Below, piece by piece: positions 9,460-36,242 of a stretch of 64,000 nt of DNA. The DNA is taken from assembly GCA_001940855.1 (NCBI GenBank), contig MSGS01000031.1, forward strand, positions 2,273-66,272, written 5' to 3'. A program made the position numbers and the translations under genes. The DNA is from Christensenellaceae bacterium Phil1. GTDB lineage: Bacteria; Bacillota; Clostridia; Christensenellales; CAG-138. The notes beneath the pieces are model-generated. The model did not search any database. It was not told the DNA's origin and saw only the letters and a list, made by a program, of their open reading frames with translations. Within the stretch, counting starts at the first letter, position 1. The number at the start of each line of letters is the position of its first letter.

Positions 9460-10137
9460 ATGGAATTTGCAAGAATAGCGCAGGAGCTTCAGCCGCGCTC
9501 CATAGCGGCACGGGATTGGGTGTTTCAGGTGATACGCACGGCAATAATCCGCGGCGTTCTGCCGGGCGGTATGCCGCTGAGGCAGGATGAAATATCAACA
9601 ACGCTCAACGTGAGCCATATTCCCGTAAGGGAAGCGCTGAGGCAGCTTGAGGCGCAGGGCTTGGTGCGCATATATCCAAACCGCGGCGCGGTGGTAACGA
9701 AGCTGTGCGCAAGCGAACTTGCGAACGTTATGGATACGCGCATAATGCTTGAAACCGGCACGCTTGGCGCGGCGATACCGCTGATGACGGACGAAACCAT
9801 ATGCAAGGCCAGGCAGTATCTTGATGAATTTAATGAAGAGCAGAACATGGAGTATCTTGATTCCATCAATCTTAAACTGCACTTTGCCCTGTATGAACCC
9901 AGCGGCAATAAGGTCGCCATAGGGCTGATAGATCAGTTCCATGCCAATGTGGACAGATATCTGCACCCGTTTTATACCAAGGCGGACATGCCCCGCGTGA
10001 AGAACATAGCCGAGCATCGCGCACTGATAGATGCATGCGAAGCAAAGGACACCGTGCTTGCAAAGGCTATACTTAGAACGCATCTTGAAAGCACTAAGCG
10101 GGCGCTGCTCAAGTCCCCGCTGCTGGCTAAGGAGTAA
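9460..10137 (+). CDS. GntR-family (FadR/FCD subfamily) transcriptional regulator
   Basis: The 225-residue protein has an N-terminal winged helix-turn-helix (about residues 18-80) with the classic GntR pattern LRQDEISTTLNVSHIPVREALRQLEAQGL and NRGAVV. The C-terminal FCD ligand-binding domain contains DTRIMLETG, LHFALYEPSGN and AEHRALIDACEAKD, whose Asp/His positions usually bind a metal and a small carboxylate. Such repressors control catabolic or fatty-acid genes and often themselves. A TTGACG/CGTCAA palindrome over its own promoter is a plausible binding site. The next gene, 8 bases downstream, is a broken hydrolase gene that may be the former target or co-transcribed partner. The ligand cannot be predicted. 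Confidence 0.9.
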   Translation: MEFARIAQELQPRSIAARDWVFQVIRTAIIRGVLPGGMPLRQDEISTTLNVSHIPVREALRQLEAQGLVRIYPNRGAVVTKLCASELANVMDTRIMLETGTLGAAIPLMTDETICKARQYLDEFNEEQNMEYLDSINLKLHFALYEPSGNKVAIGLIDQFHANVDRYLHPFYTKADMPRVKNIAEHRALIDACEAKDTVLAKAILRTHLESTKRALLKSPLLAKE

Positions 10138-10145
10138 AACGCCTG

Positions 10146-11066
10146 TTGAATACTAAAAAAGAAAACGACATACTGGAAGCAACGCTTTCGATAGCCGAGA
10201 ACGGATATGCTGAAGCGTATCGGTTTTTGGTCGATGCGTATGAAAAGGACGCTGGGAGTTTTGGTCCGCAGGCGCTGTATTTCCTTGCCTGTTTGGCGGG
10301 CGGAGCCGATATGCCGGAAAAAGCCTTGGCATGGATAAGAAAAGCCGTTGCCGATAACGGATGGTGGTACAGGCCGGAGGTACTGGAGGACGGCGACCTT
10401 GAGCCGCTTAAAGATAATGCTGAGTTTATCGCGCTTAAAGCCGTTTCCGATGCACGCTATGCGGACGCGGTAGCTAAGGCCAAGGAAGTGTTCTCATGGG
10501 AAGGGAAGAGGGCAGAAAAGCTGTTCCTTGCCGTTCACGGAAACACCCAAAATGGACAGACAGCGCGGAATGATTGGGAACCGTTGCTTGGCGAAAACAG
10601 CCAATGGCAGACAGAAACGATACAAAGCGCGGAACCGGACGGATACGGAACGTATCGGTGGAGCTATGACATGGTATCGTATCAGCCCGTAGCAAGGGCG
10701 CTCCAAATGATACAAAGCGCAGGCTATAAGCAAATAGCTTGCGGCGGTTTTTCGGCGGGGTGCGATATGCTGCTGCGCACAGTGCTGTTCACGCCCGCGC
10801 GCTGCGACATGCTGATTCTGTAAAGCCCATGGATACCGTTATTGCATGAAAATGCAGGGCAGTTGATCGATGCTATCGGTCAAAAGGGAATTGCTCTGAA
10901 TATCTTTTGCGGTTCGGAAGATGCCGACTGCCTTCCAATGGCGGAGCAGTTATATGCATTGGCCGCTAAAAATGGCCTGAATGTGCGGCTTGATATTCAA
11001 AAAGACTATCGACATCAATTCCCCGACAGCCCGTCCGCATTGACGGACTTGCTGCGGGGGATGTAA
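10146..11066 (+). pseudogene. Serine (alpha/beta) hydrolase gene interrupted by in-frame TAA
   Basis: A TTG-started frame encodes 225 residues ending DMLIL and then TAA at 10821-10823. The same frame continues open as SPWIPLLHENAGQL and runs to TAA at 11064-11066, giving 306 codons in total. The N-terminal third looks like tetratricopeptide-type helices (AEAYRFLVDAYEKDAG). A hydrolase domain follows with LFLAVHGN and the nucleophile elbow GFSAG (Ser203). The expected acid (EDADC) and histidine (YRHQFP) fall after the stop, so the truncated product would lack a full triad. A CAA Gln to TAA change at codon 226 explains the break. It follows the GntR gene by eight bases. Recent inactivation is likely because no other damage is visible. 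Confidence 0.8.
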
Positions 11067-23402: not shown

Positions 23403-23440
23403 AAAGGGACTGCGTTCAAAACCGATGCAGTCCCTTTTTC
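23403..23440. terminator. Bidirectional terminator between floA operon and sigF
   Basis: AAAGGGACTGC and GCAGTCCCTTTTT pair across a 13-base loop, with A and T tracts on both sides. It serves the convergent floA and spoIIA operons. Confidence 0.85.
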
Positions 23441-24189
23441 TATACCAATTTTCTTAACCGTTGCAATATCGCGTTTTCAAGGCGCGATACCTGCACCTGC
23501 GATATCCCGAGCGACTTTGCCACCTGCGTCTGCGTTTGGTCCGAAAAATAGCGCAGGGTTATTATCGTCCGCTCCCTTGCTGAAAGTGTATTAAGCAGTT
23601 CCTTCAGCGCAACGCGGTCCGTTGCGCTGTCCAGCTCCCTGCACGCGCCGCCAACGGTATCCAGTAGCATTGCGTCGCTTTCCGCGCCGTATGCGGGTTC
23701 GTATATGGATGCATACGGCCGCGCCGCCTCAAGCGCTTCGGCTACGTCCTCCGCGTCCACGCCAAGCTCGGCTGCGATTTCGGCAACGCTCGGTTCGCGT
23801 GCGTGAGTATCTATCAGCTTTTCGCGTACGGCTGCGGCCCGCGCTGCCAGTTCCTTGAGCGACCGGCTGACCTTAATCATGCCGTCGTCGCGCAAGAATC
23901 GCTTTATTTCGCCTGCTATCATCGGCACGGCATATGTTGAAAATCTTACGTCGTAGCTGAGATCAAAGCGCGCAATGGCCTTTATCAGGCCCATGCAGCC
24001 TATCTGGTAAAGGTCGTCGTATTCTATGGCGCGGTTCATGAATCGCTTTGCAACGCTTTTTACAAGCGGCGCGTTCGTTGTGACCAGCTGCTCCTTTGCC
24101 TGCTCGTCTCCCTGCTGCGCGCGGCTTATAAGCGTGCGCGTCAATGCGGAGGAAAACTGCCCGTTTGTGTTTATCTGCCGCTCATCCAT
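23440..24189 (-). CDS. sigF: Sporulation sigma factor SigF
   Basis: The 249-residue sigma-70-family protein has region 2 (YDDLYQIGCMGLIKAIARFDLSYDVRFSTYAVPMI, near residues 55-95), region 3 and region 4 (LSARERTIITLRYFSDQTQTQVAKSLGISQVQVSRLE). Its position as third gene of spoIIAA-spoIIAB-sigF identifies SigF, the first forespore-specific sigma factor. It is held inactive by SpoIIAB and freed by dephosphorylated SpoIIAA after asymmetric division. Its start overlaps the end of spoIIAB by eight bases. Length agrees with the Bacillus and Clostridium proteins. Confidence 0.95.
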   Translation of the reverse strand: MDERQINTNGQFSSALTRTLISRAQQGDEQAKEQLVTTNAPLVKSVAKRFMNRAIEYDDLYQIGCMGLIKAIARFDLSYDVRFSTYAVPMIAGEIKRFLRDDGMIKVSRSLKELAARAAAVREKLIDTHAREPSVAEIAAELGVDAEDVAEALEAARPYASIYEPAYGAESDAMLLDTVGGACRELDSATDRVALKELLNTLSARERTIITLRYFSDQTQTQVAKSLGISQVQVSRLENAILQRLRKLV

Positions 24190-24619
24190 CGGCCCTCACC
24201 AGGCCTATTCTTTTTGTCATGGTCACCTTAGTGCCTTCCCCGGGCGTGCTTTTCACGTCCACGCTGTCCATAAACGCCTGCATAACGCAAAAGCCCATCC
24301 CGCTGCGCTCAAGATCGGGCGCGCTGGTGAAAAACGGCTGCATGGCCTGTTCTATGTCCGCTATGCCGCGGCCTTTATCGGTAATTGTCGCGGTGAATAC
24401 GTCGCCGTCTATGCTGCAATCCATGCGCACCGTGCCGCCTTTTTGCGAATAGCCGTGTATTATGGCGTTTGTCACGGCCTCGCTTATCGCCGTGCGCACG
24501 TCTGTCAGCTCCTCTATTGTTGGGTCAAGCTGCACCATGAACGCCGCCGCCACGCTCCGTGCAAAGGCCTCGTTGCGCGAAAGCGCAGGAAAAGTTATGC
24601 TCATCTCGTTGCTTACCAT
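24182..24619 (-). CDS. spoIIAB: Anti-sigma F factor and kinase SpoIIAB
   Basis: The 145-residue GHKL-type kinase shows the N-box VRTAISEAVTNAIIHGY, the G1 box ITDKGRGIADIEQAM and the G2 box LERSGMGFCVMQAFMDSV. SpoIIAB binds and inhibits SigF and phosphorylates SpoIIAA on a serine using ATP. The ATG at 24619 is preceded by a GGGGGAGA purine-rich site. It lies 12 bases after spoIIAA and overlaps sigF by eight bases, so the operon is tightly coupled in the usual stoichiometric arrangement. Confidence 0.95.
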   Translation of the reverse strand: MVSNEMSITFPALSRNEAFARSVAAAFMVQLDPTIEELTDVRTAISEAVTNAIIHGYSQKGGTVRMDCSIDGDVFTATITDKGRGIADIEQAMQPFFTSAPDLERSGMGFCVMQAFMDSVDVKSTPGEGTKVTMTKRIGLVRADG

Positions 24620-24631
24620 CGTTCTCTCCCC

Positions 24632-24943
24632 CTATATATCCATGTGCTCTGCCAGCGTGTATATGCCGGCCATACGCAGTATGCGGTCTATGGCGCGGTT
24701 GGCGCCGCCTATGAGCACCCGTCCGCCCCTCCCGGCAATAACCCTGTACCGGCCAAGTATCACGCCCAAGCCGGAGCTGTCCATAAAAGTAAGCCCTCTC
24801 AGGTCTATCCTCAGTTCGCGTATCCTTTCGTCCGTCAGCAGCGCGTCCAACTGTGCGCGTGCCTGCGCGGCGCTGTGGTGATCCAGTTCGCCCTTTATGC
24901 GCGCGGTCAGTCTGTCTCCCGCCGCTTCAATCTCCATCTGCAT
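24632..24943 (-). CDS. spoIIAA: Anti-sigma F factor antagonist SpoIIAA
   Basis: The 103-residue STAS-domain protein contains LTFMDSSGLGVILGRYR, where DSSG (residues 55-58) holds the serine phosphorylated by SpoIIAB. Unphosphorylated SpoIIAA binds SpoIIAB and releases SigF. The first ATG (24943) has GGAGG seven bases upstream and gives the normal length. It heads the spoIIA operon. The upstream 100 bases contain a sequence that resembles a SigH promoter. Confidence 0.95.
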   Translation of the reverse strand: MQMEIEAAGDRLTARIKGELDHHSAAQARAQLDALLTDERIRELRIDLRGLTFMDSSGLGVILGRYRVIAGRGGRVLIGGANRAIDRILRMAGIYTLAEHMDI

Positions 24944-26018: not shown

Positions 26019-26819
26019 TTAATTCCTTCCTGCGGCTTTATATACCTGTGCCTGATGCTCAACGTCCGGCAGCGATGCAACGTGGGAAGTGGAGGATGAG
26101 AAGTATAAACAGGCATGGCCGTCCATATCGTTTGCCGCAACCGTGTCCTCGCCGTGCGGCTGGCCCTGAAGCGAAGCCGCAACGCTGTTTGCGCCTATTG
26201 TAACTATAACCGGCCGCTTTGAATAATTGAATTCGCCGCCGAATGCTTCAAGGTAAATCGCCGTATCTTCCGCCGTGCGGCATTCAACCTCCGCATGGCC
26301 TTCGCCGCCGGTGTATACCATCATAAATGTAACGCCTGTGTTGTAGTCCGTTATGGTATAGCCCGAACCCGCGACCAGCAGGTCTTTCACTGCGCTCCAT
26401 TCCATCAGCTCGCCCGTAAGCGTGGCTTGTCCGCTTAGCTGCTTGCCTATGGGTATCTTTGCGGCTATATCTGCACGCTGCACCCTGTGCGAAAACAGCA
26501 GCCCCATTGACTGCGCGCCCACAGTGCCGTCGCTCATGATAGGCTGACCTTGGCTGTCAACCTGCTTTTGCTGAAAGCGCTTTGTGGCTTCAACGGTCAT
26601 GTTCTGGAAGCTGCCGGTGGGCTTATAGTTAAAATAGCCAAGCTCTCTTAGCCTCAACTGTATGCGTACCACCGTTTCGCCCGTTATGCCGTAGCTTATC
26701 AGTTCGCCGGAATAAGCGTCTGTCTGCTCAGGCGAAGGGGAGGGCGTTGGGTCCGCATACGCCACGGTGCTTATAAAGGCCATGCTCAATATCAATATTG
26801 TACAAATCAGCTTTTTCAT
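26019..26819 (-). CDS. Exported peptidoglycan-binding protein with unrecognised C-terminal domain
   Basis: The 266-residue protein has a signal peptide (MKKLICTILILSMAFISTVAYA), a short Pro/Ser linker and a PGRP/PG_binding_1 domain (GETVVRIQLRLRELGYFNYKPTG through FQQKQ). About 120 C-terminal residues have no family I can name. That C-terminal part contains GGEGHAEVECRT, YSKRPVIVTIG, VAASLQGQPHG and DMDGHACLYF, and it aligns by eye with the end of the SH3/peptidoglycan-binding protein at 31094. ATG 26819 places the signal peptide at the start; its ribosome site is weak. It lies 51 bases after yunB on the same strand, so spore expression is possible. Confidence 0.8.
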   Translation of the reverse strand: MKKLICTILILSMAFISTVAYADPTPSPSPEQTDAYSGELISYGITGETVVRIQLRLRELGYFNYKPTGSFQNMTVEATKRFQQKQVDSQGQPIMSDGTVGAQSMGLLFSHRVQRADIAAKIPIGKQLSGQATLTGELMEWSAVKDLLVAGSGYTITDYNTGVTFMMVYTGGEGHAEVECRTAEDTAIYLEAFGGEFNYSKRPVIVTIGANSVAASLQGQPHGEDTVAANDMDGHACLYFSSSTSHVASLPDVEHQAQVYKAAGRN

Positions 26820-26870
26820 ACCATGATTATAGCACAAAAGCAGGAATAAACGCTATGTATAAAATGTAAA

Positions 26871-27554
26871 TTAGGGAAGATCCGTCGGAATAAGGTTCAG
26901 CATATCCTCTTCGCTTGCCACGTTCGTGTAAACCTGCGGCACTTCGCCCGCAATTATGTTTTCGGCTATAGCGGCTTCCGTGCTTACGCGGATAAGCTCA
27001 TATATGCCGGGCATAACAAGCTGGATGCTCGCCGTGAGCTTTATATTTACACGGTAGAGCGTTTGGTTTATGCCGGAGGAGGTGAATTCCGATGAAAACT
27101 GGCTCTGCACGCTGCCGGCGGGCGTGTGTGAAACATGAATGGCCGGCCCCTTGCCGGAAAGGAATGAAATTCCCGTTATCGTGCCGAGCGGTATGGCTAT
27201 GCCTTGCTCGCCAAGGGCGGCTATGCGCTGCTGCGCCGCTTCCGCACATTGTGCACTCAAAAGGTTCATTTGCCGCGGATCGGCCTGCACCATATATACC
27301 TTGCTGCCGTTTTCACGTATGTGCAGAAGTTCGGTATAGTTCTCGTCCTGCTGCATGGTGTCCAATATTGCGTCGTTCATGGCCTTTGCCGCAACGGAGC
27401 GTATTCTTGCCGTGGCAAGGGCGGTCATTGCGCTGCGCATGTTTGAACCGAGCCATGTGAACAGGGCACCTATCAATATCGCGGCCGCGCCTATGCAGAT
27501 GAGCATGCGCCTTAACGCGCGGTGGTTTTTCCTTAATGCAGGTGTGGTTTCCAT
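26871..27554 (-). CDS. yunB: Sporulation protein YunB-like
   Basis: The 227-residue protein has one N-terminal transmembrane helix (LICIGAAAILIGALFTWLG) and an outside domain with ARIRSVAAKAMNDAILD and IAIPLGTITGISFLSGKGP. Near the end are YRVNIKLTASIQLVMPG and VSTEAAIAENIIAGEVPQVY. This is the YunB family (similar length in Bacillus subtilis), mother-cell-expressed and needed for efficient spore formation by an unknown mechanism. It is followed on the same strand by the exported peptidoglycan-binding gene. Two possible SigE-like boxes lie 50-80 bases upstream but fit weakly. Confidence 0.85.
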   Translation of the reverse strand: METTPALRKNHRALRRMLICIGAAAILIGALFTWLGSNMRSAMTALATARIRSVAAKAMNDAILDTMQQDENYTELLHIRENGSKVYMVQADPRQMNLLSAQCAEAAQQRIAALGEQGIAIPLGTITGISFLSGKGPAIHVSHTPAGSVQSQFSSEFTSSGINQTLYRVNIKLTASIQLVMPGIYELIRVSTEAAIAENIIAGEVPQVYTNVASEEDMLNLIPTDLP

Positions 27555-27605
27555 GACAACTGCATACCCTCCTTTTAATTCAAATTATGGCTGCCGTGTT
27601 AATTC

Positions 27606-27632
27606 AGCATATGCACGCGCCCCTAAGTATTG
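27606..27632 (-). promoter_or_regulatory. Weak SigE-like promoter before yunB
   Basis: On the minus strand CATATGCT resembles the SigE -10 (CATAYAMT). An AATACTT stretch lies about 14 bases further upstream, where the -35 would be. The -35 fit is poor; the call is suggested mainly by the sporulation gene downstream. Confidence 0.25.
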
Positions 27633-27697
27633 AGCCTAAGAAGCAAAAATGATATAATAAAAAAACTAATATAGGAAAATAGGCGGATTGTATATAG

Positions 27698-30490
27698 ATG
27701 AAGGAAAAGCTAAAAGAGGTATTCGGCAATATCCGTTCCCGCGTAACAAGCGCATTCATGCATTCGGCGAGCGCGCGCGGCGGGGAGCGAGAGGTTGAAG
27801 AACTGTTCGTTGAGCGCAAGGGGAGCAGACCTTTTGTGTTGAGCGTGTTTTTCACAACGTGCAAATTCATGCTGATAGGCGTGCTGCTTTTGGGCTGCGC
27901 GGGGCTTGGATTGGTGCTTGGCGTTGCCAAGGCTTATATAGACACAACGCCTGAACTTGACGTGTCCCTGCTTACAAAGAGCGACAGAACATCGTATATA
28001 TATGACATGAACGGCAAACTGATCTCCACGTTCGCGGGCTATGAATACCGCGACTGGGTGGATATAGAAGCCGTGCCCGATATGCTTAAAAACGCCGTTA
28101 TAGCCATTGAGGACGTAAGGTTTTACAGGCACGGCGGCGTGGACTATAAGCGGCTGTTTGCGGCTGTAGTGGGGTCGCTCAGTGCATCGAGCGATGCGGG
28201 CGGAAGCACGCTTACCCAGCAGTTGGTCAAAAATAAGCTCCTCACAAGCGAAGTCAGCTACCGAAGGAAGATACAGGAAGCCTACCTTGCACTCCAGGTG
28301 GAGAATGCAATGGACAAGGATGAAATCCTTGAAGCGTACTTGAACGACGTATACCTTGGCCAATCCAATTACGGTATGAAGGCTGCGGCGAAGGATTATT
28401 TCGGCAAAGAGCTTTCCGAGCTGAGCATACGCGAATGCGCAATGCTTGCCGGCATGATAAAAGCGCCCAATAGTTACGACCCCAGGCGCAACACATATTC
28501 GCGGACGTATACTTCTGGCGATAAGGCCGGGCAGAACAAGATGGATATTACCAATTCGCGCACGGATACGGTGATAAAGCGCATGTATCAGGCGGGCTTC
28601 ATAACATACGACCAAATGCAGACCGCGCTGAACGACAAGGTGTATATTGTTGAAAAGCGGCAGAGCAATAAGGTGGATGATATGCTCTACTTTGTTGAAT
28701 ACGCCATAAGGGATATTGAGGATTATCTGCTGGAGGAACGCGGGCTGCTCGATACGTCCGCAAACCGCTCCGCGATAGAAAGCGAATTGAGTCGCGGCGG
28801 ATACTCGATTTATCTTACGGTGGATACCGAAATGCAGCACATTGTGCAGAACACGCTTGCCACATGGGAAGATTACCCGGCCGTGAGCGGCGCAGCGGGC
28901 GAAGATAAGATTCCGCAGTCAGCTGCCGTTGTGATAGATCAAAAGACGGGCGAACTGAGGGCGATAGTCGGCGGCCGCGAAGCGCCGGAAGTCCGTAAAG
29001 GGTGGAACAGGGCGTATCAAAGCGCAACGGAAGTAGGCTCAAGCATAAAGCCGCTCAGCGTATATGGCCCGGCGCTTGATTTGGGACTGTCTCCGGCGTC
29101 CGCCGTTGTGAATATTCCCGACCCGATAGTCGGCTGGGATACGGAAACGGGCTATCCCGCGATAGGTTCTGAAAAATACGAAGGCATAATCACGCTGCGC
29201 CGCGGCGTGGTGTCCTCGCTCAATGTGGCGGCGGCAAGAACGCTGCTTGAGGATGTGTCATTGCAAACGGGCGCGGATTATCTTGCCAGGCTTGGCGTTG
29301 ATCCGTCCCGCATAAAGACAACGGGCAGCGGCCTTGCGCTGGGTGCAATGGGCATAACGCCGATAGAGATGGCGGGCGCTTATGCCGCAATAGCCAACGA
29401 GGGCAAATATATAAAGCCGGTGTCCTTCAGCCGCGTTGTGGACCAAAACGGCAAGGTGATACTGGATTCATCAAAGCTTAGGACGGAGCAGCAGGTGTTT
29501 AAGCCCACTACCGCTTATATGCTGGTGGATATACTGCACGAAGCCGTTGAAAGCGGCACGGGTACCGCGGCGAAGATAAAGGGCATGACCGTTGCCGGAA
29601 AGACCGGCACCAATTCGGACTACGGCAGCGCGTATTTTGCCGGAATGACCGGATATTATACCGCAGTTGTATGGGTAGGGCCGGATAAGTATGAATATAA
29701 GCTGCCAAAAGGCTCCACGGGCGGCAAGGTTGCGGCGCCAATATGGCAGGCGTTTATGAAGGAGATACTCAACGGGCTGCCCGATAAGCAGATAATCGAT
29801 GCATCGCCCGTTGAACTGGGGCTTGTGCAGCGGACGGTATGCTCGCTCAGCGGAAAGCTTGCCACGGAAGCCTGCGCGTTTGATGCATCGGGCCATGTGC
29901 CGGTGACGGACTGGTTTGCGAGCGACAGCGTGCCTGTTGAATCCTGCGATATGCATGCGCTTGCGGGCATATGCTCCGCGTCCGGTCAGGCTGCAGGCCC
30001 TTACTGCCCGGCAGACGGAATACAGTATCAAAGCGTTGCCATCATTTCATCAACCTCGCGGTACAAGAAATATGACCCGCTGATACTTATAAAATACCTG
30101 CCGAACCTTGTGTATAGCGATGTTCCCGCGGCGGAATACGGAATGTATACCGCGGGCGGCATGTGCAGCGTGCATTACTCAAGCTGGAGCGGCGGGCTTT
30201 TCGGCGGCTATGCCGAAACAGATGCCAAGAACCTTATAGCCACCGTGCGGGATTACCTTGCAAAGGTGCAGAATTTGCCGGATACGGACAGGGCAACGCT
30301 CGAAAGCGGCATAGAGCAGCTTGAAAGCTACCTTGCATCTTCCGGCGGGTACGGGTTTATACAAAGCTATTATGATAGGCTTAAATACAATTACAGCGTT
30401 ATCAGTTCGGATTATCCGCCGCCGGCAAACGTCACCGTTGGCGGGAATACCGGCAGCATGAGCGGCGGCTGGGGAGGACCGGATGACTGA
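27698..30490 (+). CDS. Class A penicillin-binding protein (PBP1A-like)
   Basis: The 930-residue bifunctional enzyme has a cytoplasmic tail, a transmembrane helix near residues 55-80 and a glycosyltransferase domain with catalytic Glu138 (AIEDVRFYRHGGVD) and GGSTLTQQLVKN. A transpeptidase domain follows with nucleophile Ser448 and Lys451 in GSSIKP, and the KTGT box at 635-638. A long C-terminal extension (about residues 700-930) holds several cysteines and ends in a Gly-rich tail. It polymerises and cross-links peptidoglycan at the cell surface. ATG 27698 follows a short A+T-rich promoter-like region. Its end overlaps the glycosylase gene by eight bases, so the genes are probably co-transcribed. 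Confidence 0.95.
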   Translation: MKEKLKEVFGNIRSRVTSAFMHSASARGGEREVEELFVERKGSRPFVLSVFFTTCKFMLIGVLLLGCAGLGLVLGVAKAYIDTTPELDVSLLTKSDRTSYIYDMNGKLISTFAGYEYRDWVDIEAVPDMLKNAVIAIEDVRFYRHGGVDYKRLFAAVVGSLSASSDAGGSTLTQQLVKNKLLTSEVSYRRKIQEAYLALQVENAMDKDEILEAYLNDVYLGQSNYGMKAAAKDYFGKELSELSIRECAMLAGMIKAPNSYDPRRNTYSRTYTSGDKAGQNKMDITNSRTDTVIKRMYQAGFITYDQMQTALNDKVYIVEKRQSNKVDDMLYFVEYAIRDIEDYLLEERGLLDTSANRSAIESELSRGGYSIYLTVDTEMQHIVQNTLATWEDYPAVSGAAGEDKIPQSAAVVIDQKTGELRAIVGGREAPEVRKGWNRAYQSATEVGSSIKPLSVYGPALDLGLSPASAVVNIPDPIVGWDTETGYPAIGSEKYEGIITLRRGVVSSLNVAAARTLLEDVSLQTGADYLARLGVDPSRIKTTGSGLALGAMGITPIEMAGAYAAIANEGKYIKPVSFSRVVDQNGKVILDSSKLRTEQQVFKPTTAYMLVDILHEAVESGTGTAAKIKGMTVAGKTGTNSDYGSAYFAGMTGYYTAVVWVGPDKYEYKLPKGSTGGKVAAPIWQAFMKEILNGLPDKQIIDASPVELGLVQRTVCSLSGKLATEACAFDASGHVPVTDWFASDSVPVESCDMHALAGICSASGQAAGPYCPADGIQYQSVAIISSTSRYKKYDPLILIKYLPNLVYSDVPAAEYGMYTAGGMCSVHYSSWSGGLFGGYAETDAKNLIATVRDYLAKVQNLPDTDRATLESGIEQLESYLASSGGYGFIQSYYDRLKYNYSVISSDYPPPANVTVGGNTGSMSGGWGGPDD

Positions 30491-31097
30491 CGCGCTTCGT
30501 TTACTTTATGATGCCGAACGGGCAAGGCTTTCGGGGCTAAGTACGCAGAACAATGGGGACTATCTGAACCCGGTGTTCGGCGAAGGGCCGCTTACGCCGC
30601 ATTTGATGTTGATCGGCGAAGCGCCCGGGCGGGAGGAAGCTGCGGCTGGGCATCCGTTCGTTGGAAAGGCGGGCAGGCAGCTTAACGAGTTGCTTGAGCT
30701 TGCGGGCATAGCGCGCGGCGACGTGTTCGTGACAAACGCGGTGAAATTCCGCCCGATAAAGCACGGTGCGCGCAGCGTGGCTAATCGCACGCCTACGGCA
30801 AAAGAACTTGCTTCGGGAGAAGAACTGCTGAAAAGCGAAATTATTGCGGTGCGTCCGCGTGTTATAGCCACGCTTGGCAACAGTCCCCTTGCATCCATGG
30901 CAAGGATAAGCGGCGTAGCGGCGCCAAAGATAGGAGAGGCGCACGGCCAGGCTATGAACGTAAACATAGGCGGCAATAATATACGTCTGTTCCCGTTGTA
31001 TCATCCGGCAAGCGGCATATATAATAGGGAACTTGTTGAAACAATGCGGCAGGACATAGTAAAGCTTGGGCAATACATAAAGGAGGGCATGGCATGA
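30483..31097 (+). CDS. Uracil-DNA glycosylase family protein without Fe-S cysteines
   Basis: The 204-residue protein has family-4-like UDG motifs: LIGEAPGREEAAAGHPFVGKAGRQL (uracil-binding and water-activating region), FVTNAVKFRP, VIATLGNSPL and the C-terminal YHPAS. Such enzymes remove uracil from DNA. Family 4 enzymes normally hold a [4Fe-4S] cluster through four cysteines, including KCRP; here that Cys is Phe and the whole protein has no cysteine, so it is a cluster-free variant. It overlaps the PBP gene by eight bases and the following gene by four, an operon arrangement unrelated to its enzymatic role. Confidence 0.85.
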   Translation: MTDALRLLYDAERARLSGLSTQNNGDYLNPVFGEGPLTPHLMLIGEAPGREEAAAGHPFVGKAGRQLNELLELAGIARGDVFVTNAVKFRPIKHGARSVANRTPTAKELASGEELLKSEIIAVRPRVIATLGNSPLASMARISGVAAPKIGEAHGQAMNVNIGGNNIRLFPLYHPASGIYNRELVETMRQDIVKLGQYIKEGMA

Positions 31098-32251
31098 AGC
31101 GCATAATTGCATGGCTTGTGCTTGCGGCGCTGGTGATAGGCATACCGGGCGCGGTAATAAACACCGGCGGCACGGCACGCGCGGAAGAAGTCGGCGAAAC
31201 GGGCCAAATAATGGCCGATGGCGTTAAGGTGAGAAAATCGCCCGATACAAAGAGCGACGCGCTGACGGAGCTGAACTGTGGCGAGGCAGTAACCGTGCTT
31301 GCGGAGGACGGCAATTGGTACCGAGTAAAATTCGGCGATGTGCTGGGCTATGTTCGCAAGGACTATGTGTTCACCAATTCCGCCGGCAGCCGCGGAGCGT
31401 ATGCCGTGAGCGATACGGCCGTGCTGATGGGCGCGCCGTCGCAAAATTCATATGTTGTTTGTTCCCTCGCCGCCGGGCAGGGGCTGAAGGTAAAGGCACT
31501 TATAGGCGAATGGTACTATGCCGTGGTGGATAGCCATGCGGGTTATATACACCGCACGGATGTGACAATATCATCGTCGGCCGTTGCGGGCATGGGAATG
31601 CTGAAGCAGGGCATGAAGGGCGAGGAGGTCATGAAGCTTCAGCGCGCGCTTTACGACCGCGGCTTTTTAACAAAGGATAATATAAGCGGAACGTTCACAT
31701 CCCAAACGCGCAAGGCGGTTATGGAATATCAGCAGGCGATGGGCCTTTCCGCAGACGGCATAGCCGGCAGCGCAACGCTTTCAACTGTGTATGACAGTTC
31801 AAATAAGCTTGAAAAAGCGAACGCCGACTTCTATAGGCTTAAAGGCACAGTGGTGCTGCTTGATTGGTTCAAGGGCGGCAACGAATGGCTGCATAAGGGC
31901 GCGCGCTTTACCGTTACGGACGTGCGCACGGGCAAAAGCTTCCGTGCCAAGCGCTTCGGCGGCTGGTACCATGCGGACAGCGAACCTATAACCAAATATG
32001 ACACATCCATTATAAAGAGCCTGGAGGGCTTCTCATGGAATCGCAGGCCGATATGGGTAACATATAACGGCAAAACGGTCGCCGCAAGCATGCACACCAT
32101 GCCGCACATGGCAAACCCAACCCCATCCAATGGCTTTGACGGGCATTTCTGCATCCATCTGTATCATTCCAAGGTGCATGCAAACAGCAAGGAATGCCCG
32201 CGGCATCAGCGCTGCGTTCAGGAAGCATACAGCGCGGGCAAAAAACACTAA
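31094..32251 (+). CDS. Exported SH3 / peptidoglycan-binding protein with unrecognised C-terminal domain
   Basis: The 385-residue protein has a signal peptide (IIAWLVLAALVIGIPGAVINTGGTARA), two bacterial SH3 domains (about residues 35-160; MADGVKVRKSPDTKSDALTEL and YRVKFGDVLGYVRKDYV) and a PG_binding_1 domain (LKQGMKGEEVMKLQRALYDRGFL). A 135-residue C-terminal domain follows with FGGWYHADSEP, WNRRPIWVTYNGKTVAASM, DGHFCIHLYHSK and HQRCVQEAY. That last part matches the C-terminal half of the 26019-26819 protein. It may act on cell wall or cortex; DGHFCIH recalls the HGCIR active site of L,D-transpeptidases but differs at key positions. Its start overlaps the glycosylase stop by four bases. Confidence 0.8.
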   Translation: MKRIIAWLVLAALVIGIPGAVINTGGTARAEEVGETGQIMADGVKVRKSPDTKSDALTELNCGEAVTVLAEDGNWYRVKFGDVLGYVRKDYVFTNSAGSRGAYAVSDTAVLMGAPSQNSYVVCSLAAGQGLKVKALIGEWYYAVVDSHAGYIHRTDVTISSSAVAGMGMLKQGMKGEEVMKLQRALYDRGFLTKDNISGTFTSQTRKAVMEYQQAMGLSADGIAGSATLSTVYDSSNKLEKANADFYRLKGTVVLLDWFKGGNEWLHKGARFTVTDVRTGKSFRAKRFGGWYHADSEPITKYDTSIIKSLEGFSWNRRPIWVTYNGKTVAASMHTMPHMANPTPSNGFDGHFCIHLYHSKVHANSKECPRHQRCVQEAYSAGKKH

Positions 32252-32336: not shown

Positions 32337-33932
32337 TTGAATATAATAAAGCGCATATTCAGCTTCGGCAGGAGCTACGATGAATTTGAACTGCTTGAGA
32401 CCGAAGGCGGGCAGCCTGGTTTTTTCGGCAGCACAGGAAGGGCGCATAAGGACGCAGCGGGAGCGATAGAAAACGCGAACGACACGATAAACTGCGACGT
32501 ATCCGCCAACGAAGAACGGCTCAAAACGGAGATGCACGCGGAGATAAATCCGGATATGGTAATGCGGCGCTTTTTACTTTGCGGGCAGATAGAGGCGCTT
32601 GCTGTGTTCATAAACGGCATGAGCGACCAAAGCTTAGTGAGCGATTTTATACTGCGGCAGGGAATACCCGAAAGGGAATTGCCTAATGATGCGCCGCTTG
32701 TTGAATACGTTGCAAATAATGTGTTCGCCATGGCGGAAGTGAAGCAGGAAACAAGCTGGAACACAATAAAAACAGCCATAATGGATGGCTGTACTGCCGT
32801 GTTTATTCAGGGGAAGACGACAGCGCTTACTATGGACACTCGCAGCTATGAGCACCGCAGCATACAGGAGCCCAGCAATGAAAAGGTCGTGAAAGGCTCG
32901 CAGGAGGGGTTTGTAGAAAACCTGAGGACGAACATAACGCTTATCCGCCGCCGCGTACGCACAGATGATCTGGTGGTGGAACTGCGTACATACGGCAAGG
33001 AGGGCAGCTCCCGCGCGGCAATAATGTACCGCGAAGGGATAGCGAATGAATCGCTGGTGAATGAAATTAAGCGCCGCCTTGCAAACGTGAATGCCATGTA
33101 TGTTTTTAACGCGGGCACGCTTGAGCAGCTTACCGAGCGCAACACTTATTCCGTTTTTCCGCAGCTGCTTGCGACGGAACGGCCGGACAGGACGGCGGCA
33201 ATGCTGATGGAAGGGCATGTGGCAGTTATAGTTGAAGGCAGTCCGACGGCGAATGTTATGCCGGCAACGCTTTTTACCCTTATGGCTACGGGGGAGGACA
33301 GCACAATGCGCGTTGTGCAGGGCAGCGTTATAAGAATGGTGCGCTACATAGGAGCGGCAATCTCGATATTGCTGCCGGGATACTTTCTTGCGCTTGCGCT
33401 GCATCATCAGTCGTTGCTGTCGTCGGAGGTGCTTACGACGGTTGTAGCATCGCGCAAGATGGTGTTTGCGCCGATCGGCATGGAGATGCTGTTTCTGCTG
33501 CTTGTATTCCAGCTTGTGCGCGAAGCAGGGATGCGCGTGCCGGGGTCTATCGGTCAGGCGATAGGCATAATAGGCGGGCTAATATTAGGGCAGGCCGCTG
33601 TAACGGCAAACCTTGCAAGCTCCGTAATGCTTATAATTGTTGCGCTGACGGGGCTTGGCAATTTCTGCATTCCGGATTATTCAACCCAGCTTTCTGCATC
33701 GGTGCTGCGGGTGATATTGGTGATAGCATCGTGGCTGGCGGGGCTTATGGGGCTGTTCTGCGGGGCATTTGTGATAGTTGCATGGATGGCGTCCCTCAAA
33801 TCATTTGGCGTGCCGTTCCTTGCGCCGCATTCACCGAAGGCAAATTCGAAGCGGCCAATGATACTGCGCGGGCCGATAGATAACATGAGCCGGCATAAGG
33901 ACATACTCAATACTGAGGAGGACGGCAGATGA
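32337..33932 (+). CDS. Spore germinant receptor subunit A (GerAA/GerKA family)
   Basis: The 531-residue protein matches GerA-type A subunits: an N-terminal domain (about residues 1-280) with CGQIEALAVFINGMSD and VFIQGKTTALTMDTRSYEHRSIQEPSNE. A membrane domain of about five to six helices follows (MVRYIGAAISILLPGYFLALALHH), with a hydrophilic C-terminal tail. A subunits form the nutrient-sensing part of the receptor in the spore inner membrane. TTG 32337 has GGGAGG about nine bases upstream. It is the first gene of an A-B-C operon and overlaps the B gene by four bases. Specific germinant not predictable. Confidence 0.95.
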   Translation: MNIIKRIFSFGRSYDEFELLETEGGQPGFFGSTGRAHKDAAGAIENANDTINCDVSANEERLKTEMHAEINPDMVMRRFLLCGQIEALAVFINGMSDQSLVSDFILRQGIPERELPNDAPLVEYVANNVFAMAEVKQETSWNTIKTAIMDGCTAVFIQGKTTALTMDTRSYEHRSIQEPSNEKVVKGSQEGFVENLRTNITLIRRRVRTDDLVVELRTYGKEGSSRAAIMYREGIANESLVNEIKRRLANVNAMYVFNAGTLEQLTERNTYSVFPQLLATERPDRTAAMLMEGHVAVIVEGSPTANVMPATLFTLMATGEDSTMRVVQGSVIRMVRYIGAAISILLPGYFLALALHHQSLLSSEVLTTVVASRKMVFAPIGMEMLFLLLVFQLVREAGMRVPGSIGQAIGIIGGLILGQAAVTANLASSVMLIIVALTGLGNFCIPDYSTQLSASVLRVILVIASWLAGLMGLFCGAFVIVAWMASLKSFGVPFLAPHSPKANSKRPMILRGPIDNMSRHKDILNTEEDGR

Positions 33933-35041
33933 GGCTGAACGAAGGCAAAATAGGCTTGCAGGAAAGCGCGAGCATTGCGGCGGTGGCTATCACGGCATGC
34001 AGTGTTTTTCTGCTGGATTCCGAAAAGGCGTATTCCCGCGGGGATGCAACGTTCATATCACTGCCGGTGAGCATAGCGGTAAGCTTAGCAATGTTTATGC
34101 TGATGTGGTGCGCAATGCGCCGTACAGGCGCGCGAAACCTGATCGAACTGTTTGATATGTGCGTAGGGAAGGCGATAGGCACCGTGCTGAGCATTGTTGC
34201 GGCGCTGATATTCATACTGTACGCATATAGGCTGATGGCAAGATTTTGCATATTGATACACGGGCGCGTGTTCGCCGCGGCGGAGTATGAAAGCGTTGCG
34301 CTTTGGATAGCCGTTCCGGTGGCGTATGCGGCCATAAAGGGGCTTGAATGCTTAAGCAGACTGGCTAAGATATTCGGCGTGCTGATCGGTGCGCTTGTGC
34401 TGATTAGCCTTATAATAATGATATCAGCCTATGATGTGAGCCGCCTTGCGCCGTTTCCGGGGGACTTGGGCAAGCTTGGCATGGATACGATTTCGCGTTC
34501 TGCGGATTCTGTTGCGGCATTTCTCGGGCTGATATGCGTAGCGGGCGCGCTTCAGGGCGGGCGCAATGTAAAAAAGAGTGCGCTCATTGGCAGCGGAGTA
34601 GCCATAGCATTTGTGTTCATGATACAATTCGCGCTTGGTGCAACATTTACATATACAGACCTATCCCAAATGGCAATGCCCATATATCTCATGAAAATGG
34701 TAGTCATGCGCGAAAGCTATCTTTTCAGGCTGGATCAGATGAACCTGTTCTTCTATATGATAGCAGCGCTTATAACGGCGGCGTTTTATGTATACTGTGC
34801 GGCGCTTATAATCACCCGCCGCACATTTGGGCAGGACATTCGCCCGGCGGTCGTTGGCGTGAGTGCGTTTATATTGGCCGCGCTAAGGGTTAATCACCGC
34901 TTTGAGGCAGGCATAATACAGCAGAGCATAGATTTTTTGTATGATTACGCATTTGTGGCCGGCGTGCCGTTTATACTGGCAGCGATAGCCGGATTGATAC
35001 GCTTTGGCAGGAAAGGCAGGGCATATGAAGCGGATAAGTAA
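33929..35041 (+). CDS. Spore germinant receptor subunit B (GerAB/GerKB family)
   Basis: The 370-residue protein is an APC-superfamily permease-like membrane protein with about ten helices. It starts MRLNEGKIGLQESASIAAVAI and has the B-subunit layout (LIELFDMCVGKAIGTVLS, VALWIAVPVAYAAIKGLECLSRLAKI). B subunits bind the germinant amino acid or sugar and may form the signalling channel. It overlaps the A gene by four bases and the C gene by 17 bases, a tight operon. Length is normal. Confidence 0.93.
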   Translation: MRLNEGKIGLQESASIAAVAITACSVFLLDSEKAYSRGDATFISLPVSIAVSLAMFMLMWCAMRRTGARNLIELFDMCVGKAIGTVLSIVAALIFILYAYRLMARFCILIHGRVFAAAEYESVALWIAVPVAYAAIKGLECLSRLAKIFGVLIGALVLISLIIMISAYDVSRLAPFPGDLGKLGMDTISRSADSVAAFLGLICVAGALQGGRNVKKSALIGSGVAIAFVFMIQFALGATFTYTDLSQMAMPIYLMKMVVMRESYLFRLDQMNLFFYMIAALITAAFYVYCAALIITRRTFGQDIRPAVVGVSAFILAALRVNHRFEAGIIQQSIDFLYDYAFVAGVPFILAAIAGLIRFGRKGRAYEADK

Positions 35042-36242
35042 AACAATATGCTTGATGCTGGCGGCTGCTTTTGTCGCGTTTAATATGGCGGGATGCATAA
35101 GCTATGTTGCCATAGATGAATACGGCTACGTTATGACCGTTGGCGTGGACAAGGGCGAAACGTATGATTACCGCTTCTGCTTTATTGTGCAGGTAGAAGG
35201 CGCATCGCAGGGCGAAAGCGACGCGGAAAACGTTGTGCTCAGCGCGGAAGGAAACAATATTTACGATGCTGTAGCCGTTGTAGAAGTTGGGGTTCCGTAT
35301 CAGCTGAATTTCGGCAGGGCGAACTATATGCTGTTTTCAAAGGAGGTTGCGGAGACGGGATACATAGCGCGCTTCATAGACGAATCGTTCAAAAATCTTG
35401 GCGTGCGCCGCTCAACTAAGCTTATGGTTGTGCTTGGGGACAGCCTTGATTACTGCACGGGCGTTGTGAGCAAGGATAACCCGAATACATCAAAGCGGCA
35501 GTATTCAATACTGCGCGACTATGTGTCCGAAGGCCTTACGCCTATAACAAACATTGCCATGTTCACCCAAAACGTGAACGCCAAACGCGGGGACAACATA
35601 GTTACGCTCGGCGCAACGGATGATTCTATACCGAATGAAGAAATAACCGGAAGCAGTCAGGACAGCGAACTGAACCCAAACAGCACCACGGCGGGAGTTG
35701 AGCGCACGGGCGGACTGCGGGCATATTACATGGGCTGCGCTGTGTTCGACGGCGGAACGATGAAGGGCGTGCTAAGCGGGCGTGACACGGAAATAATTCT
35801 TATGGCCAAAGGCATGTTCCGCGCGGGCAGGCTAACATTGCATCACGAAGACGGAGAAGGGCACATGGTGCTTTTACTCAAGGGCGGCGGAAAGCCAAAG
35901 GTTGAATTGTCAATAGGCGGCGATGCGCCTTACGCCAAAATGAGTGTAAGGCTGCAATGCCACATTGAATGCGGCGAGGAGGACATGGATTACAACAAAT
36001 GGAACCGGGAGGTTAAACCGATGCTTGAGGATTATATGGAACGCGAGCTTGAAAGGGTGTTCACGCTATGCCGCGGCATGAACAGCGACGCTTACGAAAT
36101 AGGCAAGTATGCGGCAATGAAGTTCCACAGTGCGGAAGAATGGGAGCAATACGACTGGAAAAGCCGGTATCCTGAGCTGAATATGGAATTTGATGTTTCG
36201 CTTTACGTTGAAAATGAAGAAATAAACTCACTTGGAGGTTAA
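35025..36242 (+). CDS. Spore germinant receptor subunit C (GerAC lipoprotein)
   Basis: The 405-residue lipoprotein begins MKRISKTICLMLAAAFVAFNMAGC with a lipobox (FNMAGC), so diacylglycerol attaches to Cys24. The body matches the Ger(x)C family (YGYVMTVGVDKGETYDYRF, QVEGASQGESDAENVVL). The C subunit is anchored to the outer surface of the spore inner membrane and is needed for receptor function. ATG 35025 is chosen because the signal peptide begins there; an upstream ATG at 35004 lies inside the B gene. It is followed by a 50-residue membrane protein three bases later. Confidence 0.93.
   Translation: MKRISKTICLMLAAAFVAFNMAGCISYVAIDEYGYVMTVGVDKGETYDYRFCFIVQVEGASQGESDAENVVLSAEGNNIYDAVAVVEVGVPYQLNFGRANYMLFSKEVAETGYIARFIDESFKNLGVRRSTKLMVVLGDSLDYCTGVVSKDNPNTSKRQYSILRDYVSEGLTPITNIAMFTQNVNAKRGDNIVTLGATDDSIPNEEITGSSQDSELNPNSTTAGVERTGGLRAYYMGCAVFDGGTMKGVLSGRDTEIILMAKGMFRAGRLTLHHEDGEGHMVLLLKGGGKPKVELSIGGDAPYAKMSVRLQCHIECGEEDMDYNKWNREVKPMLEDYMERELERVFTLCRGMNSDAYEIGKYAAMKFHSAEEWEQYDWKSRYPELNMEFDVSLYVENEEINSLGG

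Follow-up and report, generated by a model that had tools for sequence, protein, structure and literature searches.

The 64,000-nucleotide stretch of DNA analysed here (the window), from contig MSGS01000031.1 of the spore-forming Christensenellaceae bacterium Phil1, contains the genes of two proteins, P1 and P2, that both open with a hydrophobic, signal-peptide-like segment (read directly from the sequence), carry the wall-binding module PG_binding_1 and end in a common domain of about 140 residues. That two exported PG_binding_1 proteins share a C-terminal domain at this locus had been claimed in the original prediction, and this is borne out: both open reading frames are present, the first of them on the minus strand, and their C-terminal domains align by BLASTP with 34% identity over 126 residues (E-value = 4e-21). 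The two domains are homologous beyond chance. A search of the 2.85-Mb genome with one of them returned the other as its sole match (E-value = 1e-16), so that the genome has two copies in total. Domain residues are numbered here from P2 residue 243 (P2 residue = domain residue + 242); H293, D295, E297, H338, C353, H362 and H371 of P2 are thus H51, D53, E55, H96, C111, H120 and H129 of the domain. Of the shared motifs described earlier, GG..HA[DE].E and DGHxC[LI] match exactly in P1 and P2, and the later His corresponds to H120 and H129, whereas the strand given as RPxxVxxGxxxAAS needs correction: RPxxV..G..AAS is found in both, but its G is shifted by one residue between them.

No model of Pfam or NCBIfam covers the C-terminal domain of P1 or P2, even at E-values up to 10. 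When 52 homologues were compared with Pfam, PHROGs and NCBIfam, only isolated, chance-level matches in single members were found, and a PDB sequence search with the domain profile gave chance matches only (LSm8, E-value = 0.17). RefSeq names a Tepidibacter relative 'peptidoglycan-binding domain-containing protein' and a Cytobacillus relative hypothetical. In short, the kind of protein (exported or phage-encoded, modular and wall-targeting) is known, and the domain itself is absent from the libraries searched, in agreement with its earlier description as unrecognised.

Table 1. Genes and domains around P1 and P2, in window coordinates.
Feature	Position	Strand	Remarks
spoIIA-like genes (STAS, anti-sigma kinase, sigma factor)	23440..24943	minus	beyond P1
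P1 (266 aa): signal-like N-terminus, PG_binding_1, new C-terminal domain	26019..26819	minus	
New domain in P1	26022..26444	minus	likely site H175, E177, E179, H222, C237, H246, H255
PG_binding_1 of P1, residues 46-86	26562..26684	minus	E 1.3e-7
Spore_YunB gene	26871..27554	minus	PF09560, E 2.8e-29; same strand as P1, 51 bases upstream of P1
Class A penicillin-binding protein (Transgly + Transpeptidase)	27698..30490	plus	first gene of run ending in P2
Uracil-DNA glycosylase superfamily gene (udg)	30483..31097	plus	overlaps penicillin-binding protein gene and P2
P2 (385 aa): signal-like N-terminus, two SH3_3, PG_binding_1, new C-terminal domain	31094..32251	plus	
Best SH3_3 stretch of P2, residues 42-92	31217..31369	plus	
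PG_binding_1 of P2, residues 176-230	31619..31783	plus	E 5.3e-16
New domain in P2, residues 243-385	31820..32248	plus	likely site H293, D295, E297, H338, C353, H362, H371
gerA/gerK-type germination genes (GerA, Spore_permease, GerAC)	32337..36242	plus	downstream of P2

A small set of residues is kept throughout the family. Among 188 non-identical members, many of them related, so that the counts do not represent independent events, H51 is present in 186 and H96 in 184; of the members aligned at the two later positions, 179 of 183 have H120 and 181 of 182 have H129. Position 53 holds D or E in 185 members and position 55 E or Q in 183. At position 111, the 184 aligned members have Cys (152), Asp (29), Phe (2) or Gly (1). 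The original prediction had tied itself to the conservation of both His and Cys across homologues; the histidines hold and the cysteine does not. In a tree of 125 members computed with column 111 left out, the residue at this position has changed between Cys and Asp at least six times; four of the changes are forced by well-supported branches, and Cys members lie inside Asp clades. Such trading of Cys111 with Asp in unchanged surroundings is not what would be expected of a nucleophile; metal ligands do trade in this way.

All seven site residues are intact in 153 of the 188 members, and a further 31 depart at a single position, which is in every case 53 or 55. In the remaining four, which are degenerate, two, five, six and six of the residues are lost together, and such joint loss is the strongest indication obtained that the seven would form one functional site. 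The two most degenerate copies are found in two genomes that belong to the same taxonomic order and are without SpoIVA, as intact open reading frames of PG_binding_1 proteins (L192, 2629-3381, plus strand; L193, 2974-3726, minus strand). They have lost H51, D53, E55, H96, C111 and H120 and retain the scaffold (W16, D34, RxxV, the AAS strand and the GH loop), and thus look likely to be pseudoenzymes. H129 may be structural, since it is kept in both. The partly degenerate members are L168 (1349-2548, minus strand) and L077 (2-571, plus strand), the latter accompanied by an intact paralogue in the same genome stretch. P2 and many of its relatives have two additional cysteines flanking the last conserved His (C368 and C374, in KECPRHQRC; window 32195-32215), possibly a disulfide or a second metal site, and the pair is missing in most of the distant members.

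A single-sequence search detected the domain in 66 of 196 genomes sampled throughout the class, and a profile search in 104 of 299 genomes sampled throughout the phylum. When contigs of public genomes were scanned, 599 candidate stretches emerged, of which 564 were confirmed; the 80 kept come mostly from metagenome-assembled genomes (MAGs) of Clostridia, with Caldicoprobacter algeriensis and C. oshimai among the named organisms. Because the scan profile was made from the Cys-type subset, its counts are biased toward Cys. The phylum sample therefore gives the fairer figure for position 111: 51 Cys, about 15 Asp, 2 Phe and 4 unaligned among 72 members. The domain also occurs in Bacilli, as it is present on a plasmid of Cytobacillus spongiae (L254, 4840-6678); here it stands near the N-terminus, with a different C-terminal extension, and the divergent neighbour is a VanW family gene. 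Family members form tandem pairs in two genomes (L078, 4999-7801; L104, 469-3003). Among 70 full-length members of the phylum sample, the partner domain is LysM in 39, PG_binding_1 in 24 and SH3_3 in five, and a hydrophobic N-terminal export segment was recognized in 61 of the 68 cellular members scored.

The genomes that carry the domain are mostly those of spore formers. With SpoIVA as the marker, high-quality genomes only and contingency counts obtained by comparing lists, SpoIVA was present in 92 of 92 domain-positive versus 137 of 175 domain-negative genomes of the phylum sample (Fisher p = 4e-8, which ignores shared ancestry), and in 51 of 56 versus 69 of 103 genomes of the class sample (p = 9e-4, with the same reservation). 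In the window, the P1 and P2 genes flank yunB and the class A penicillin-binding protein gene, and the overlapping run of penicillin-binding protein, udg and P2 genes is followed by the gerK-type operon. The order P1/yunB//PBP/udg/P2/gerK (PBP, penicillin-binding protein) recurs in related genomes (L040-L046), with udg undetected in L046 by the synteny test. The window's class A penicillin-binding protein (27698-30490) has a C-terminal tail of about 240 residues past the transpeptidase, with several Cys and without Pfam coverage.

Seven IMG/VR phage contigs encode PG_binding_1 together with the domain, none of the seven with an export segment, and the phage members are all of the Cys type in the translations examined. 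The phage evidence rests on these seven contigs, since the INPHARED phage collection gave no match to the domain. In one of them (L235), the domain gene comes directly after an endolysin-like ELLD-SH3 gene (E-value = 4e-61) and is separated from a holin gene (PHROG E-value = 1e-21; Phage_holin_6_1 E-value = 4e-11) by one small gene, whose product has a hydrophobic segment; a holin neighbour was seen in this contig only, one of the seven. Pfam finds ELLD (PF25309) in the neighbouring gene and not in the domain protein, and the two domains thus differ. In another contig (L233), terminase and portal genes lie just downstream of the domain gene, and a 169-kb phage contig additionally encodes NlpC/P60, GH25 and four PG_binding_1 proteins. 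Amidase_2 was not found in the seven contigs. As ELLD, NlpC/P60 and GH25 genes are present, the phage domain gene is to be regarded as one of several lysis-type genes and not as 'the' endolysin. In a 20-kb stretch of a further phage contig (L236, IMGVR_UViG_3300031992_000016), the domain gene (9743-10423) is broken up by in-frame TAG when read with the standard code; taking TAG as Q lifts the coding density from 0.61 to 0.81, and TAG is apparently read as an amino acid in this phage.

Structure prediction, which the original prediction had named as a check, gave a confident AlphaFold fold without a clear PDB match, with a predicted local distance difference test score (pLDDT) of about 92: 92.4 from alignment A3, and 92.9 in a separate run led by P1, both with a predicted template modelling score of 0.87. 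Along the chain, a helix and three strands are predicted, then a second helix and two strands and, after a long loop, a last strand and the C-terminal helix. Judged from the alternation of residues along the predicted strands, H51, D53 and E55 would share one face of a strand, and H109, C111 and H113 would likewise share a face of another. The top VIA scores (Z = 7.2 and 7.0) were to PilZ-like domains, other small barrels and chymotrypsin-like proteases, which is the background level of the tool; a PilZ fold is not claimed, as such a score reflects no more than a common arrangement. The fold is claimed neither as known nor as new.

The explanation that we favour, though by a modest degree, is that this is a new peptidoglycan-acting hydrolase domain of about 140 residues, probably zinc-dependent; the enzymatic activity, the metal and the bond cut are inferred. 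LysM, PG_binding_1 or SH3 modules would deliver the domain to peptidoglycan and hold it there; H96, Cys or Asp111 and H120 would hold a metal ion, probably zinc, which would activate water, with H51 and E55 assisting catalysis; and the product would be hydrolysis of an amide or peptide bond in the peptidoglycan stem. The cellular copies, exported and mainly in spore formers, would act in cortex or wall remodelling or in germination, and the phage copies, without a signal peptide, would serve in lysin-type proteins. This architecture resembles that of the modular wall hydrolases of Firmicutes with LysM, PG_binding_1 or SH3_3 (SleB, NlpC/P60, GH25), which have a signal peptide, binding modules and one further, usually C-terminal domain and whose plan is also used in phage lysins; the difference is that the further domain here is not catalogued. 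The earlier suggestion of a new wall or cortex enzyme thus gains from the conserved likely site, the sporulation and germination neighbours and the lysin-like phage proteins. A broader proposal, somewhat less likely than not, is that the family would be a new superfamily of metal-dependent peptidoglycan (cortex) hydrolases that has a fold of its own and a metal site of two His and an exchangeable Cys or Asp, that occurs in roughly a third of the sampled Clostridia-type genomes, for the most part those of spore formers and often as multiple copies, and that phages have taken over as a lysin.

Several observations weigh against a hydrolase. Foldseek searches with the two models found nothing at E ≤ 0.001 in PDB (best 0.065 and 0.10) or in BFVD (0.023), and no fold match to a known hydrolase was obtained with Foldseek (PDB and BFVD) or VIA. 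The domain may be accessory in phages that carry other lysin-type genes, namely L235 and the 169-kb contig. The link with sporulation is in part a matter of shared ancestry; five of the 56 high-quality domain-positive genomes of the class sample are without SpoIVA, and two of these five hold degenerate copies. A crude regular-expression scan for sporulation-sigma promoters upstream of members showed no significant enrichment, the sequences being MAGs with uncertain start sites.

The main rival, which we consider unlikely though far from negligible, is a non-catalytic domain that binds peptidoglycan or cortex or is structural, with its His, Asp and Cys holding a metal or ligand for recognition. 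It would account for the domain nearly always standing beside other binding modules, for the weak fold likeness to simple beta-barrels such as PilZ and for the persistence of degenerate copies in genomes without SpoIVA, but the LysM or PG_binding_1 modules of the same proteins already bind peptidoglycan, and a phylum-wide H/D/E/H/[C/D]/H/H set is typical of catalysis. Because the export-free phage proteins consist of a binding module and the domain only, as in lysins, nothing else in them could be catalytic; this argues for, without proving, a domain that carries out the chemistry itself. A cysteine-nucleophile enzyme of the L,D-transpeptidase type, YkuD-like or more distant, in which GHxC is a changed active site, is improbable, although the original prediction had seen in GHxC a likeness to the transpeptidase Cys. 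Cys111, with a His before it, is indeed present in 152 of the 188 members, the new domain shares with YkuD (PF03734) the wall-binding modules in front, which many such enzymes have, as well as a GH.C motif and a similar size, and L,D-transpeptidase domains distantly related to YkuD have reportedly been described. However, the 29 members with Asp nearly all keep the rest of the site, and switching has gone both ways. The conserved His set is also different, and YkuD is not known to have counterparts of the strongly conserved H51/E55, H120 and H129. A profile comparison (hhalign) with 30 YkuD domains gave a probability of 0.2%, versus 100% for the positive controls (YkuD domains split in two, and Cys-type against Asp-type members of the new family), and there was no Pfam YkuD match. 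As both profile similarity and an invariant Cys are wanting, the domain is not filed under YkuD, and this reading was rejected on the Cys/Asp exchange together with the profile result. The YkuD fold was not among the Foldseek or VIA matches either, an absence that does not exclude it.

Still more improbable is a remote, overlooked member of a known hydrolase family, such as the 3D/MltA barrels, the M15-type carboxypeptidases or the type-2 amidases. The first was suggested by the motif GHFD[LIV][YH], which resembles the 'IDvyF' strand of 3D domains, but hhalign gave a probability of only 0.5% against a small set of nine 3D sequences and the candidate was dropped. The profile comparison, also proposed earlier, thus detected no similarity to either YkuD or 3D. 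No consistent Pfam match was found in 52 members, and both models are without a Foldseek PDB match at E ≤ 0.001 despite the many structures of such families. The type-2 amidases (PF01510; T7 lysozyme, AmpD, AmiE, PGRP) offer the closest parallel in their site: the conserved set of H96, Cys or Asp111 and H120 recalls their three zinc ligands, which AmpD and AmiE have as His/His/Asp but T7 lysozyme and LysC as His/His/Cys (PMC7404271), an interchange of Cys and Asp like that at position 111, and they too belong to peptidoglycan and have phage and autolysin versions. In contrast to them, the new domain has a predicted secondary structure that is small and beta-barrel-like and the additional conserved H51-x-D-x-E and H129, and it has no sequence or Foldseek match to them. 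As no Amidase_2 match was found with Pfam in 52 domains or 70 full proteins, the domain is not filed there, and the analogy extends only to the possibility that it works as type-2 amidases do.

If the domain proves to be enzymatic, about a third of the sampled genomes of the class and the phylum, mostly spore formers, would hold an unrecognised family of wall or cortex enzymes, and some phages would hold an unrecognised lysin catalytic domain, putting a new lysin domain type on offer. The domain would then be a new and directly testable candidate for a role in cortex maturation or germination.

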